Source: Gluconobacter thailandicus F149-1 = NBRC 100600 (GTDB lineage Bacteria > Pseudomonadota > Alphaproteobacteria > Acetobacterales > Acetobacteraceae). Taken from it: a stretch of DNA of 64,000 nt. Where the stretch lies: positions 1-64,000 of the forward strand of contig NZ_BANH01000013.1 of NCBI RefSeq assembly GCF_000964465.1, given 5' to 3'. The notes under the pieces were generated by a model, which saw only the letters and a program-made list of their open reading frames with translations, did not search any database and had not been told where the DNA came from. Below, piece by piece: positions 1 to 23,074 of this stretch. A program made the position numbers and the translations under genes. Positions within the stretch are counted from its first letter, which is position 1, and every line of letters starts with the position of its first letter.

Positions 1-44
1 TACGAATCTGGGGGTTAGAGGTTCAAGTCCTTTCGGGTGCACCA
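1..44 (+). tRNA. tRNA-Arg(ACG), 3' part
   Basis: This is the 3' part of a tRNA cut by the window edge. Reading back from the encoded CCA (42-44) gives discriminator A41, acceptor strand CGGGTGC (34-40), and a T arm AGAGG-TTCAAGT-CCTTT (17-33). It then gives a five-base variable loop (12-16), the 3' anticodon stem TCTGG (7-11), and T33-ACG-AA at 1-6. The anticodon is therefore ACG, an arginine tRNA whose A34 is normally deaminated to inosine by TadA. The 5' half lies outside the window, so the acceptor and D arms cannot be checked. Confidence 0.9.
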
Positions 45-63
45 CACAGCTTTTCCCTGAAAA

Positions 64-498
64 TCAGTGCGTAAGTTCTTCCAGAGCGCGATAGACGTCT
101 TCCCATTCGTAAGGCTTGGGAAGAAAGGCTGTCTTTTCCGGAAGTGTTCTCTGTTCTTTCAGGAATGCGCCTGACGTCAGAACAACCCCGATCTCCGGCC
201 AGCGTTGCACAACTGTCTCTGCCAGATCGAGCCCATTGATACGGCCCGGCATGTTCACATCAGAAAATACGAGATCCACGGTTTCGCCTTTCAGCAGAAT
301 ATCCATGGCTTCATCGGCAGTGGCAGCAAGAATCGGGTTGTATCCTGCGTCTTCAAGCATGTCTGCAGCAAGAAACCGCAGCAGAGCCTGATCTTCGACG
401 ACTAACACATTCTTCCGCGCCGCCAGATAAGCACCTCCAGCATGCATGCCGCGAGACCGCCCGACAGACGTCGTTCCTTTCCCTGACATGACATACAT
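64..498 (-). CDS. Single-domain response regulator (receiver only)
   Basis: This 144-residue protein has a 28-residue basic, glycine-rich N-terminal extension followed by one CheY-like receiver domain and no output domain. The acidic pair is E35-D36, the phosphoacceptor is D80 in FSDVNMPG, the switch threonine is T108 in LTSG, and the conserved lysine is K128 in LPKPY. All catalytic positions are present, so phosphorylation is expected. The start is supported by AGGAGGG eight bases upstream of the ATG. No histidine kinase lies nearby, so it is an orphan whose partner and output cannot be named from this window. It most resembles FixJ/CheY-type stand-alone receivers of Alphaproteobacteria. Confidence 0.85.
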   Translation of the reverse strand: MYVMSGKGTTSVGRSRGMHAGGAYLAARKNVLVVEDQALLRFLAADMLEDAGYNPILAATADEAMDILLKGETVDLVFSDVNMPGRINGLDLAETVVQRWPEIGVVLTSGAFLKEQRTLPEKTAFLPKPYEWEDVYRALEELTH

Positions 499-18541: not shown

Positions 18542-20458
18542 GTGAGCCTGCTCACCATCACTGACCTGACACTCCGCATCGCTGGCCGCACTCTGCTGGA
18601 CGGCGCATCGCTGACTGTCGACCCCGGTCGGAAAATCGGCCTTATCGGAAAGAACGGTGCCGGAAAATCAACGCTCCTCGGCGCTATTGCAGGTGATATT
18701 GCCCCCGATGGCGGTACGATCACACTCGCCAACCGCGCGACAATGGGGCGCGTGAAGCAGGAAACGCCATCTGGTGAGACATCCCTGATCGATACGGTTC
18801 TGGAAGGCGATATCGAGCGCGCAAAGCTCCTTGCCGAAGCAGAAACTGCCACAGATCCTGAGCGAATTGCGGACGTTCATGAACGCCTGATCGCCATTGA
18901 CGCCTACACAGCCCCTGCCCGTGCTGGCGCCATCCTGTCCGGCCTCGGGTTCGATCAGGACGCTCAGCTCCGCTCTGTTTCGGATTTCTCCGGTGGTTGG
19001 CGGATGCGCGTTTCCCTTGCTACAGCGCTATTCCTGAGCCCGGATCTGCTGCTGCTGGATGAACCGACCAACCATCTTGATATCGAAGCCACCCTCTGGC
19101 TCGAATCCTGGCTGGCCAAATTCCCTGGTGCAGCCATCATCGTCAGCCATGACCGCTCGCTGCTCGACAACACCGTCGATGCCATTGCTCACCTTGATCA
19201 CCAGAAGCTCAGCCTGACACCAGGCGGCTACGACAATTTTGTGCGTATCCGCACGGAGCAGGCCCTTCAGCAGAATCGCATGGCAGAGCGCATCGCGACC
19301 CAGCGCGCTCACATGCAATCCTTTGTAGATCGCTTTCGTGCCAAAGCCACCAAGGCCAAGCAGGCCCAGGCCCGACTGAAAGCGCTGGAACGCCTGCCCC
19401 AGATCGACAGTGTCGTGGAAGATACACCAACGCGCTTTTCCTTCCCGGAGCCGCAGCCCCTGCCGCCACCCATGATCACGCTCGACAATGTCAGCATCGG
19501 TTATGACGGCCGCGTGGTTCTCAAGGGGCTGAACCAGCGTCTGGATATGGAAGACCGAATCGCGCTTCTGGGTCAGAACGGGCGTGGCAAATCAACCTTC
19601 GCCAAACTCCTGGCGGGTCGGCTTGAGCCAATGGTCGGCTCTTACAACCATTCTTCCAAGCTCAGGATCGGATATTTCGCGCAGCATCAGGCGGATGAAC
19701 TCGTCCTTTCCGAAACTCCAATCGATCACATGGCACGTGCCATGCCTGATGCTACGCCTGTGGCTGTCCGGTCTCAGTTGGCGCGATTTGGTCTGGACGT
19801 GAACCGGGCGGAAACACGCGTTTCGGAACTGTCAGGCGGTGAAAAAGCGCGACTTCTTCTGGCGCTCTCCACTCGTGATGCCCCTCACCTCCTGATCCTC
19901 GATGAACCGACCAACCACCTGGATCTGGATGCCCGCGATGCCCTGATCCGTGCCCTCTCAGAATTTGAAGGAGCCGTGATCCTGATCAGTCATGACAGCC
20001 ATCTGGTTGAATCCGTGGCAGACCGGTTCTGGCTGGTAGAAGACGGTACGATCTCTCCCTTCGAAGGAGATATGGCTGAATATAAGGAGTGGCTGGTCGA
20101 GCGCGCCCGGAAGGCCCGTGCCGAAAATACCGAACGCACGAAAAGCGCGAGCCGCTCTTCTTCTCAGGATACTCCACAGCCTTCTGCCAGCCAGAAGAGA
20201 GTAGATCGTAAAGAACTGACGCGCGCGTTGGCTCCGCTCAGAAGGAAAATTCGTGATGCAGAGGCAAAACTCGCTCAAATCACGAAAGAAAAAGAAAAAA
20301 TCGAGGCTAAACTTGCAGATCCCACACTGTATCAGTCGGGGAACCCCGGGGAAATTGCGTCTCTGAACGCACATCTCTCTGCGCTCAACGCAACGCAGGA
20401 ACAGACCGAAGAGCTATGGCTGGAGGCTCAGGCCGAACTTGAAGACGCATCAGCCTGA
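18542..20458 (+). CDS. ABC-F family ATPase (Uup/YheS-like)
   Basis: A 638-residue protein with two ABC domains and no membrane domain, so a soluble ABC-F ribosome-associated factor. Domain 1 has Walker A GKNGAGKST, signature FSGGWRMRVSLA and Walker B LLLLDEPTNHLD. Domain 2 has GQNGRGKST, LSGGEKARLLLA and LLILDEPTNHLD. The linker between them (about 235-300) is charged and helical, like the P-site tRNA interaction motif. A C-terminal coiled coil (about 555-635) favours Uup or YheS over EttA. The start is a GTG with GAGG upstream. Confidence 0.88.
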   Translation: MSLLTITDLTLRIAGRTLLDGASLTVDPGRKIGLIGKNGAGKSTLLGAIAGDIAPDGGTITLANRATMGRVKQETPSGETSLIDTVLEGDIERAKLLAEAETATDPERIADVHERLIAIDAYTAPARAGAILSGLGFDQDAQLRSVSDFSGGWRMRVSLATALFLSPDLLLLDEPTNHLDIEATLWLESWLAKFPGAAIIVSHDRSLLDNTVDAIAHLDHQKLSLTPGGYDNFVRIRTEQALQQNRMAERIATQRAHMQSFVDRFRAKATKAKQAQARLKALERLPQIDSVVEDTPTRFSFPEPQPLPPPMITLDNVSIGYDGRVVLKGLNQRLDMEDRIALLGQNGRGKSTFAKLLAGRLEPMVGSYNHSSKLRIGYFAQHQADELVLSETPIDHMARAMPDATPVAVRSQLARFGLDVNRAETRVSELSGGEKARLLLALSTRDAPHLLILDEPTNHLDLDARDALIRALSEFEGAVILISHDSHLVESVADRFWLVEDGTISPFEGDMAEYKEWLVERARKARAENTERTKSASRSSSQDTPQPSASQKRVDRKELTRALAPLRRKIRDAEAKLAQITKEKEKIEAKLADPTLYQSGNPGEIASLNAHLSALNATQEQTEELWLEAQAELEDASA

Positions 20459-20594
20459 AAGCAAAATTTCACAAACAGCGACGTGAAAATTAAGGAGTTT
20501 GTTTACTTTTGATCCGTAGATTTCTGTCTGGATCTTAAAACAAGAGGCAACTGGCACTCCCAGGGCTGCCTTCAAGTACAGACAGGATGCCTGC

Positions 20595-21836
20595 GTGCCT
20601 CAGAAAACCTCACACGGCTCTAATGCATCTCGCGTCAGATCCTCAAGGCACTTTTCTTCTCACAGTTCATCCGGCAGTCCTCACACTTCGCCTTCTGCAC
20701 GCCATAATGGCTACAACCACCACCATACCGCCTCACAGCGCCACCATGACAAGCATCCAGCTGCGTGCTCCCCTTCCAGAAGAGCAAAAGAACCAACACA
20801 CCCCGCAGCCTCGGAGAATTTCACGGAGGCCTGCTTTCTTCCCGGAAGCCTGATTGCCACACCAGAGGGTGAGCGTCGTGTGGAGTCCCTGGCCATCAAT
20901 GACCTTGTCCTGACCTCTGAAGGGTTACCGGAGAAACTGGTATGGGTCGGGAAAAGTCAGTGTACCGTTCGACCTGATCTTGCCGACGATCTGGCAGGAT
21001 GGCCAATCCGTATCCGTACGGGCGCGATCGCCGACCATCTGCCTCATACCGATCTGCTTGTTACAGCTGAGCACTGCATTTTCCTGAATGGTGGACTCAT
21101 TCCAGCACGAATGCTGGTCAATGGAATTTCCATTATGTGGGATAGAAGCATTCGCTCATACGAGTACTTTCATATTGAAACTGAACCACATGCCCTTATC
21201 TCTGCCAACGGACTACTGACTGAAAGTTACTTCGATACGGGTGACAGGAAGGTTTTTCAGCAGGCAGGGCAGATTGCAGCGCTTCGTTCAATTCAGAAAG
21301 ACTGGGAAAAAGACGCCGCTGCCCCGCTTATGACATCCCGTTCCCAAACGGAGGAAGTTTGGAAAGCCATCGCCGCACGGGCTGGTGTCGAAGGGTTCGA
21401 GGCCTGCACGACGACAGATCCTTCGCTGCATCTGATTCTTCCTGACAGCACCCGTCTTTATCCAAGCCGTGAGAGCGGCGGATATGTCATTTTTACGTTG
21501 CCTCATGCGGTCAGGAGCCTTCGGCTTGTTTCCCGCGCAGCCCGTCCCTGTGATGTAACAGGGCCTTTCATTGATGACCGACGCACTCTTGGCGTCCTGA
21601 TCCGGGACATCATTCTTTTTGATGCCTCCAGAACCCGAAAAGTTACTGACCACCTTATGCCCCCGGAACCAACCTCTGGGTGGATGGCTGACGAGCCCCC
21701 AGGTCAGGGCTGGACTGATGGAGATGCGGCCCTGCATATCAATACAGAAGGTCCAAGCACCCTGGCGCTCGAAATTATCGGCGGTGGTCCCTACATTCTT
21801 TCTGAACCCCGCTCGCAGATCCGCCACACTGCATAA
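20595..21836 (+). CDS. Hint-domain (Hedgehog/intein-type) protein with His/Ser-rich leader
   Basis: A 413-residue protein. Residues 1-79 are a low-complexity Ser/His-rich leader with HHH and RHHDKH clusters. A Hint_2-type domain starts at C80 (ACFLPGSLIATPEGERRVESL). It continues with LVTAEHCIFLNG, the block carrying the conserved Thr-x-x-His, and with EPHALISANGLLTESY. The C-terminal 140 residues form an unassigned, beta-rich-looking domain. Hint domains can cleave or rearrange the peptide bond before the first Cys; whether this one does is unknown. The GTG start has AGGA seven bases upstream. Proteins of this type are frequent in acetic acid bacteria and mostly uncharacterised. Confidence 0.78.
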   Translation: MPQKTSHGSNASRVRSSRHFSSHSSSGSPHTSPSARHNGYNHHHTASQRHHDKHPAACSPSRRAKEPTHPAASENFTEACFLPGSLIATPEGERRVESLAINDLVLTSEGLPEKLVWVGKSQCTVRPDLADDLAGWPIRIRTGAIADHLPHTDLLVTAEHCIFLNGGLIPARMLVNGISIMWDRSIRSYEYFHIETEPHALISANGLLTESYFDTGDRKVFQQAGQIAALRSIQKDWEKDAAAPLMTSRSQTEEVWKAIAARAGVEGFEACTTTDPSLHLILPDSTRLYPSRESGGYVIFTLPHAVRSLRLVSRAARPCDVTGPFIDDRRTLGVLIRDIILFDASRTRKVTDHLMPPEPTSGWMADEPPGQGWTDGDAALHINTEGPSTLALEIIGGGPYILSEPRSQIRHTA

Positions 21837-21868: not shown

Positions 21869-23074
21869 TTGACCCGCCACCCCGAAGTCCATAAGCCGAT
21901 GCTGGCTTACAGATTCAGGATGGACCGGCTGATGCCTATTTCGTTTTCCGACACGAAGGACCACGACGAAAAGGAGCCGCGGGCGCGCGAGCTTTCCCGG
22001 ATCGCAGGGCTGATCCGCATAGCCTTAGCCGTTACGTTAATCCTGCTCGCTGTCTGGCTCATGAAAGACGTACTCGCTGTTGTCTTCGCCTCGGCCTTGA
22101 TGGCTGTGGTGTTGCACGGTCTGGCCCGGATAGTTCGGCGGCACGTCACATTTATCCCCTATCAGGCCGCTGTGGCACTTGTAACTGTTGTGATCCTCCT
22201 GGCCGTAGCCGGCCTGGTATGGAGCAGCGGTCCGGCTATCGGGGACCAGTTCATTCGCCTCAAACAGGCACTTGTCCAGCAGTCCGGAGACCTCAAGTCT
22301 CATCTTTCCGGATCCACATTGGGCCAGATGGTTCTTGACCATTTGCCAACTGCTGTAGGCGGCAATGATGCGACCTCCGGCAGCCTAGGCTCACTGGGAT
22401 CAGGCCTCGCCGGGTCTGTCACGGGCATTCTAAGCAGTGCCTTTGGTGTTCTCGGTACGCTGGCAGTGATCTTGATTGCAGGGCTCTATTTTGCCCTGTC
22501 CCCAGCCATTTACATTGATGGTTTTCTGCGCCTCTTCCCGACCCAGCATCGCGGTTCAGCCCGCACGCTACTGATGGCTGCCGGGACCACACTCTGGGCA
22601 TGGACTGCCGGACAGGCTCTGGACATGCTTGTTGTCGGCATTCTGTCAGGGATTGGTCTTTCGCTAATTGGCGTGCCACTCGCGCTGGCTCTTGGTGTCG
22701 TTGCGGGACTCTGCAACTTCATCCCTTATATCGGAGCAATCATGGGTGCCGTTCCGGCAATATTGCTAGGTCTCTCCATGGGGACCAAGGAAGCGCTTTT
22801 CGTGGCCATTCTCTATAGCGTTATCCAGTTCTTCGAAGGCAACGTTCTCGCCCCGCTGATTCAGCGTCGTGCTGTGCACATGCCGCCAGCAGTCGCCATC
22901 CTGTCCCAGACCGTTTTCAGCTCGATTCTTGGTATTCCAGGGCTGATCCTTGCCTCTCCGATCACGGCAGCCCTTCTCGCAATGGGCGACAAGGCCACGG
23001 CTCCTCTTGAAGACGAAGATCAGACCAAGCGGGATGTCGGAGAAATTTTTGAAGACCAGGCTCGCAAAGAGTAA
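21869..23074 (+). CDS. AI-2E family transporter (PF01594)
   Basis: A polytopic protein of up to 401 residues with about eight hydrophobic segments, a periplasmic-loop region (about 125-190) and the family block GLCNFIPYIGAIMGAVPAILLGL near residues 285-307. The ending EGNVLAPLIQRRAVHMPPAVAIL is also typical. Members export small molecules or act as Na/H antiporters; the AI-2 exporter role holds for few of them. The frame opens at a TTG without a ribosome site. ATGs at 21899, 21920 and 21932 are better starts and cannot be separated here. Confidence 0.85.
   Translation: MTRHPEVHKPMLAYRFRMDRLMPISFSDTKDHDEKEPRARELSRIAGLIRIALAVTLILLAVWLMKDVLAVVFASALMAVVLHGLARIVRRHVTFIPYQAAVALVTVVILLAVAGLVWSSGPAIGDQFIRLKQALVQQSGDLKSHLSGSTLGQMVLDHLPTAVGGNDATSGSLGSLGSGLAGSVTGILSSAFGVLGTLAVILIAGLYFALSPAIYIDGFLRLFPTQHRGSARTLLMAAGTTLWAWTAGQALDMLVVGILSGIGLSLIGVPLALALGVVAGLCNFIPYIGAIMGAVPAILLGLSMGTKEALFVAILYSVIQFFEGNVLAPLIQRRAVHMPPAVAILSQTVFSSILGIPGLILASPITAALLAMGDKATAPLEDEDQTKRDVGEIFEDQARKE

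Follow-up and report, generated by a model that had tools for sequence, protein, structure and literature searches.

Gene content of the locus

The window analysed is a 64,000-nucleotide stretch of Gluconobacter thailandicus F149-1 = NBRC 100600 (contig NZ_BANH01000013.1, positions 1 to 64,000). The gene studied here, referred to as the window gene, encodes a His/Ser-rich leader, a Hint domain that begins at Cys80 and a C-terminal domain (Table 1). The GTG start, the Shine-Dalgarno-like sequence, its spacing from the start and the first codons (VPQ) are shared by the window gene and its orthologues in G. japonicus (L015) and G. frateurii (L016). The MerR-type gene two places downstream of the window gene has a TipAS-like domain according to Pfam, and therefore provides no metal link. 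No known metal gene was present among the neighbours scanned (NDK, ABC-F, AI-2E transporter, MerR/TipAS), and no constant partner gene was seen when the surroundings of the paralogues in the same genome were read by eye.

Table 1. Features of the window gene and its immediate neighbours
Feature	Coordinates	Strand	Basis
ABC ATPase with ABC_tran_Xtn (ABC-F/uup type), upstream neighbour	18542..20458	+	Pfam; synteny
AGGA, Shine-Dalgarno-like	20584..20587	+	7 bases 5' of GTG; sequence
GTG open reading frame, 413 aa	20595..21836	+	Reading frame open throughout
His/Ser-rich leader, 79 residues, predicted disordered	20595..20831	+	Composition; block pLDDT mostly 31-37; dN/dS
Hint_2 domain, residues 80-215	20832..21239	+	Pfam PF13403; predicted fold
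Cys80, predicted N-S acyl shift nucleophile	20832..20834	+	62/62; 136 Cys and 3 gaps of 139
Thr157-Ala-Glu-His160, block B TxxH	21063..21074	+	Thr 139/139, His 138/139
His193-x-Glu195-x3-His199, block-F-like	21171..21191	+	62/62 each; His193 and His199 138/139 each, Glu195 132/139
Glu210-Ser211, in place of intein penultimate His and terminal Asn	21222..21227	+	Glu 138/139; Ser 130 and Thr 9 of 139
C-terminal domain, residues 250-413, beta-rich, DDRR and GW...WT motifs	21342..21833	+	Family alignment; model
AI-2E family transporter, downstream neighbour	21869..23074	+	Pfam PF01594, E 9e-49; synteny

Conservation and predicted fold of the Hint domain

Hint_2 (PF13403) was the sole Pfam match in the window protein at E-values up to 1 (E 1.5e-34; 119.9 bits against a curated cut-off of 28.4). 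No NCBIfam family was matched, and a PDB sequence search with the single protein gave a best E-value of 1.2. The first-pass annotation had placed the start of a Hint core with a Thr-x-x-His block at Cys80, and this was borne out by the position of the Hint_2 match and by an intact Cys80 and Thr157-x-x-His160, all three of which are invariant across the 62 family members aligned, window gene counted. Conservation was also counted in 139 proteins with both Hint and C-terminal domain, which were distinct by sequence key, included the window gene, excluded alignments shorter than 280 residues, and comprised 18 proteins cut by the locus end. Another choice of rows gave 137 Cys and two gaps at position 80, and Ser or Thr in 138 proteins with one gap at position 211.

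The three gaps at Cys80 had different origins. In L039 the frame was cut at the end of the fetched locus, and in L081 the alignment had slipped beside an insertion, with the Cys visible in the sequence. The loss was real in L084, in which His160, His193, His199 and Glu210 were changed too; this joint loss is expected if the residues work together. The Cys-less genes L084:2100-3329 (+) and L088:2096-3352 (+), the latter similar to the former by eye, encode Hint plus C-terminal-domain proteins, have intact copies downstream of them, and are on contigs classified as viral. L085, a copy of L084, was omitted from the structure alignments.

An AlphaFold2 model made from 14 input sequences returned a confident Hint fold over residues 81-210 (block pLDDT 88-95) and a disordered leader. 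The predicted fold is that of the Hint superfamily: among the matches listed, the Hint part of the model aligned with inteins, BIL, Vint and Hog structures at Z 9.5-13.4, including the BIL domain 2lwy (Z 13.4, rmsd 2.1 over 116 residues), a Tetrahymena BIL (Z 12.7) and Hedgehog 1at0 (Z 10.6, rmsd 2.6 over 114 residues). Many of the intein alignments stopped at model residue 211 (for example 78..211 against -1..125 of gp41-1), and Ser211 was taken, from these alignment ends, as the equivalent of the terminal Asn of inteins. Asp131/132 is a tentative candidate for the counterpart of Hedgehog Asp303, but position 132 is Asp in only 114 of the 139 family proteins. The conserved active-site residues and the predicted Hint fold support the earlier suggestion that peptide-bond rearrangement before Cys80 is possible.

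The C-terminal domain

The C-terminal domain was modelled with moderate confidence, and its DDRR, GW and WT motifs were conserved over the family. It had no match in Pfam or NCBIfam, the best E-value in a PDB profile search was 0.85, and a fold search gave no match at E 0.001 or better, with the same outcome for a viral library. The best fold matches were to Hikeshi (Z 6.4), CBM35 (Z up to 5.0) and CBM6 (Z 4.4), all of which lie within the noise of the tool. As the first-pass annotation had stated, the domain is thus of no recognised family, with neither a Pfam or NCBIfam match nor a confident fold match; it is, nevertheless, the constant part of a large family, and a search with this domain by itself gave matches in 38 of 60 Acetobacteraceae genomes. 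At L056:8610-9098 (+), and also at L014, the domain stands free, with no Hint before it and no DDRR loop.

The last residue was Ala in 53 of 62 members, and in 106 of 139 when frames cut by the locus end were included, compared with 26 of 146 in the background. The tail preceding this Ala was not conserved. The terminal Ala could be a signal for export or turnover.

Distribution of the family and variability of its N-terminal part

The genome from which the window was taken had 14 matches. Besides the window gene, these are 10 further proteins with Hint and C-terminal domain, a free C-terminal domain and two Hint proteins from another subgroup. Each of the 26 Gluconobacter genomes searched had matches (2 to 20 per genome), and a family profile built from 41 aligned members matched in 118 of 150 Acetobacteraceae genomes, some of the weak matches perhaps being to the Hint part only. 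These counts agree with the earlier remark that such proteins recur in acetic acid bacteria. When the Hint plus C-terminal part was used by itself to search viral contigs, no relative was found.

A Pfam scan of 49 members found Hint_2 in all of them, AIDA repeats in 16, Hyphal_reg_CWP in three and G8 in two. On the basis of this content, the N-terminal part is variable, and the Hint and C-terminal domains are constant. The large passenger domains of the relatives are probably surface-exposed. Tandem genes with Hint and C-terminal modules that are identical (L061) or nearly so (L062) were found in genome G015; the three L061 frames, of 1039, 1447 and 1638 aa, hint at recombination or recent duplication. 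A protein of 1749 aa at L055:8294-13540 (-) combines Hint_2 with an endonuclease/exonuclease/phosphatase-like domain and a group 1 glycosyltransferase.

Loss of the passenger

The syntenic locus was examined in 11 of 26 Gluconobacter genomes. The same two genes, for the ABC-F-type ATPase and the AI-2E transporter, flank the orthologue in eight of eight further Gluconobacter loci (L019-L026), and all eight proteins start with a short stretch with a His+Ser fraction of 0.21-0.33, followed by a beta-repeat passenger and then by Hint. Among the 11 orthologues, the passenger was missing only in the window gene, L015 and L016, and the leader of the window protein occupies its position. A tree of 73 rows joined this short trio and the eight passenger-bearing orthologues at 100/94, each group being supported at 100/97 or better, and the branch to the short trio was long (0.91). 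The simplest reading is that the common ancestor of the short trio had already lost its passenger.

Among the three short orthologues, dN/dS was 0.03-0.09 for Hint, 0.07-0.11 for the C-terminal domain and 0.29-0.53 for the leader; these values are rough, because synonymous sites are near saturation (pS 0.58-0.82) and one linker comparison was not computable. By these estimates, the Hint and C-terminal domains are under purifying selection, and the leader is less so.

The His-rich leader and its occurrence in other genera

The leaders of the three short orthologues had His+Ser fractions of 0.37, 0.31 and 0.40. In 2379 overlapping windows of 79 aa, taken from mechanically called open reading frames around paralogues in the same genome, the fraction averaged 0.092 and never exceeded 0.291. 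The leader had been described as rich in His and Ser, and its composition in all three orthologues was above the background maximum. Each leader of the trio has 11-12 His despite poor alignment of the leader sequences.

In the 60 residues before Cys80, six of the 139 proteins had 7-13 His and the other 133 had at most four, with none at five or six. The six proteins are the window protein, L015, L016, L118 (the L163 gene, genome G050), L164 (G073) and L202 (G103), and they span four genera, three besides Gluconobacter. This proportion is not a population frequency, because short-frame regions were picked on purpose: 17 of the 139 proteins, including L164 and L202, came from 19 regions chosen nearly all for short frames. 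Leader length was at most 140 aa in all six. His richness was found in 6 of 16 short leaders not at a locus edge and in 0 of 123 other proteins (p 9e-7, with short frames chosen on purpose and sequences that are related). The remaining 10 short leaders were not His-rich, and passenger loss alone therefore does not bring His.

The position of the His residues varied. In L163/L118 the His run stops two residues before the Cys, unlike in the window protein, and in L164 and L202 the His clusters are accompanied by Cys and Asp. The neighbours of the window gene were absent from the fetched flanks (about 0.7 to 2.5 kb per side) of L163, L164 and L202, the flanks of L164 giving weak matches of general ABC ATPases to these neighbours. 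In a tree of 44 hand-picked rows (44 of 47 chosen), in which bootstrap support was unsettled, the His-rich state needed four changes, two of them forced by well-supported branches. In a tree of 82 rows, from which near-copies were omitted and in which L118, as the copy of the L163 gene, was unlabelled, three changes were needed and three were forced. Most simply, the 44-row tree suggests four origins of His-rich junctions, of which two are forced.

Comparison with known Hint systems

The features of B-type BIL domains were taken from the available text of a review (PMC7765530). Compared with that description, the window family has in common the Hint fold, the N-terminal Cys, the TxxH block, the lack of a C-terminal His-Asn (here Glu210-Ser211), an expected N-terminal cleavage and variable host proteins. 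It differs from the BIL domains described there in that variable N-terminal passengers are combined with a constant domain after Hint. A His-rich junction was not found in the descriptions of B-type BIL domains in that text. The cyclising C-terminal Asn of splicing inteins is absent from the window protein, which has Ser211, and the position was Ser or Thr in 139 of 139 proteins.

The layout of Hedgehog Hog is similar, with the Hint fold (1at0), an N-terminal cargo and an extra domain that follows Hint, but the C-terminal domain of the window protein had no match to the sterol recognition region, which excludes nothing. AIDA autotransporter adhesins share their repeats with the 16 family members noted above; the family differs from them in a C-terminus made of Hint and an unassigned domain, and the window protein, which has no AIDA match in Pfam at E up to 1, has lost the repeats. 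The scan of 49 members matched nine Pfam families, none of them an autotransporter barrel. Pretoxin HINT (PF07591) belongs to the same superfamily, and 3 of the 49 members match it weakly (best E 0.00059). Polymorphic toxins with pretoxin HINT vary in the C-terminus that follows HINT. The window family is arranged the other way round, with a variable N-terminal part and a C-terminal domain conserved over the family, and does not match this type.

Buerglin 2008 (PMC2362128) describes an unnamed bacterial group whose C-terminal Hint-like domain is set apart from those of the intein, Hog and BIL types. It resembles the window family in consisting of bacterial proteins with a C-terminal Hint-like domain, and differs, by its description there, in coming from Myxococcus, Reinekea, Serratia and others, with no acetic acid bacterium named. 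Neisseria MafB toxins carry an A-type BIL domain, and their layout, as far as it is given in the text available (PMC4287609), differs from that of the window family. Literature searches found no paper joining 'Hint domain' with Gluconobacter, or 'intein-like' with 'acetic acid bacteria'. For Hint/BIL, 'histidine-rich' was absent among the matches listed, and the search for Hint_2/PF13403 was swamped by unrelated HINT2.

Proposed mechanism and alternative explanations

On balance, we lean towards reading the window protein as an autoprocessing protein of the Hint_2 family, similar to B-type BIL domains, that has lost its passenger and frees a His-rich disordered leader, with gating by metal or pH as a hypothesis. 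The protein probably cuts itself. Cys80, aided by Thr157 and His160, would convert the preceding peptide bond into a thioester. The N-terminal part would then be freed through attack by water or by an external nucleophile that the C-terminal domain perhaps holds. With Ser211 (Ser/Thr in the family) in place of the terminal Asn, neither splicing out of the Hint and C-terminal domains nor C-terminal cleavage driven by Asn is expected. The cleavage that we infer would most likely release the 79-residue leader; transfer of the leader to an acceptor is a possible alternative outcome.

The His cluster near the scissile bond might, as a guess, make the reaction depend on metal ions or on pH. Acetic acid bacteria live at low pH. 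According to the available text of two reviews (PMC9163320, PMC8529194), zinc inhibits the autoprocessing of Hedgehog and inteins, and its ligands in Hedgehog are the catalytic Cys, His and Asp. The His cluster could strengthen or buffer such a zinc effect, or respond to low pH. This gating idea is weakened because the cluster of the window protein ends before the cut site, with one His only in the last 13 residues before Cys80.

It is unlikely that the window gene is a decayed remnant, in which the passenger was deleted, the leader is functionless low-complexity filler, and the Hint and C-terminal domains linger. The fast evolution of the leader (dN/dS 0.29-0.53, with indels) and the long branch to the short trio (0.91) are in keeping with decay, but purifying selection on the Hint and C-terminal domains in three species, the conserved start and reading frame, the 11-12 His kept while the leader sequence diverged, and the recurrence of His-rich junctions in other genera all argue against it. 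A ligation like that of Hedgehog, in which the C-terminal domain holds a lipid or glycan that attacks the thioester and anchors the N-terminal part to a surface molecule, so that water is not the usual acceptor, seems improbable. It would suit the Hog-like layout of Hint and a following domain and the constant, conserved C-terminal domain, as well as the nearness of a Hint gene of another subgroup to hpnN, the gene for a hopanoid transporter, with a spacing of 4.1-4.5 kb in 13 of the 26 Gluconobacter genomes (counted by eye). Against this stands a C-terminal domain with no confident lipid- or sugar-binding match, which excludes nothing. In addition, Hint-family and HpnN matches co-occurred no more than by chance (106/118 compared with 25/32, p 0.13, cells counted by eye), and among the matches listed no pair of Hint gene and hpnN was closer than 5 kb outside Gluconobacter, the nearest being about 25 kb apart (G085, G159). 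Equally improbable, in our estimate, is an exported leader that is set free to act as a metal-binding peptide, with Hint merely releasing it: the leader occupies the place of the cargo, and Cys and Asp accompany the His clusters in L164 and L202, but the scanned neighbours (NDK, ABC-F, AI-2E transporter, MerR/TipAS) include no known metal gene.

A broader version of the favoured autoprocessing reading is doubtful. It holds that, more than once in acetic acid bacteria, an autoprocessing module of surface proteins became a peptide-releasing switch gated by metal or acid, through replacement of the passenger by a His-rich segment adjacent to the Hint cysteine; Ser or Thr at the Asn position, with the conserved Glu before it and perhaps acting as an internal acyl acceptor or relay, would give a chemistry unlike that of splicing and of Hog. 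The protein is a variant new within the known Hint superfamily, with a clear evolutionary story and an idea on its regulation that is unproven. If true, control by metal or pH would be built into a cellular Hint protein through the His cluster at its junction, and a first function would be assigned to the family, which was matched in 118 of the 150 Acetobacteraceae genomes sampled.

Candidate export and acceptor genes

Since Hint-family and HpnN matches co-occur only as by chance, a hopanoid acceptor was not supported. In the complete genome G150, which has 13 family matches, no HlyD was present among the ten candidates scored. With type I secretion considered as a possible export route, 143 of the 150 genomes had an HlyD-type adaptor at an E-value of 1e-40; these comprise 115 of the 118 genomes in which the family was matched and 28 of the other 32 (p 0.038, cells counted by eye). 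At L054:8172-16832, an other-subgroup Hint gene lies about 4.5 kb from hpnN, which encodes a hopanoid RND transporter.
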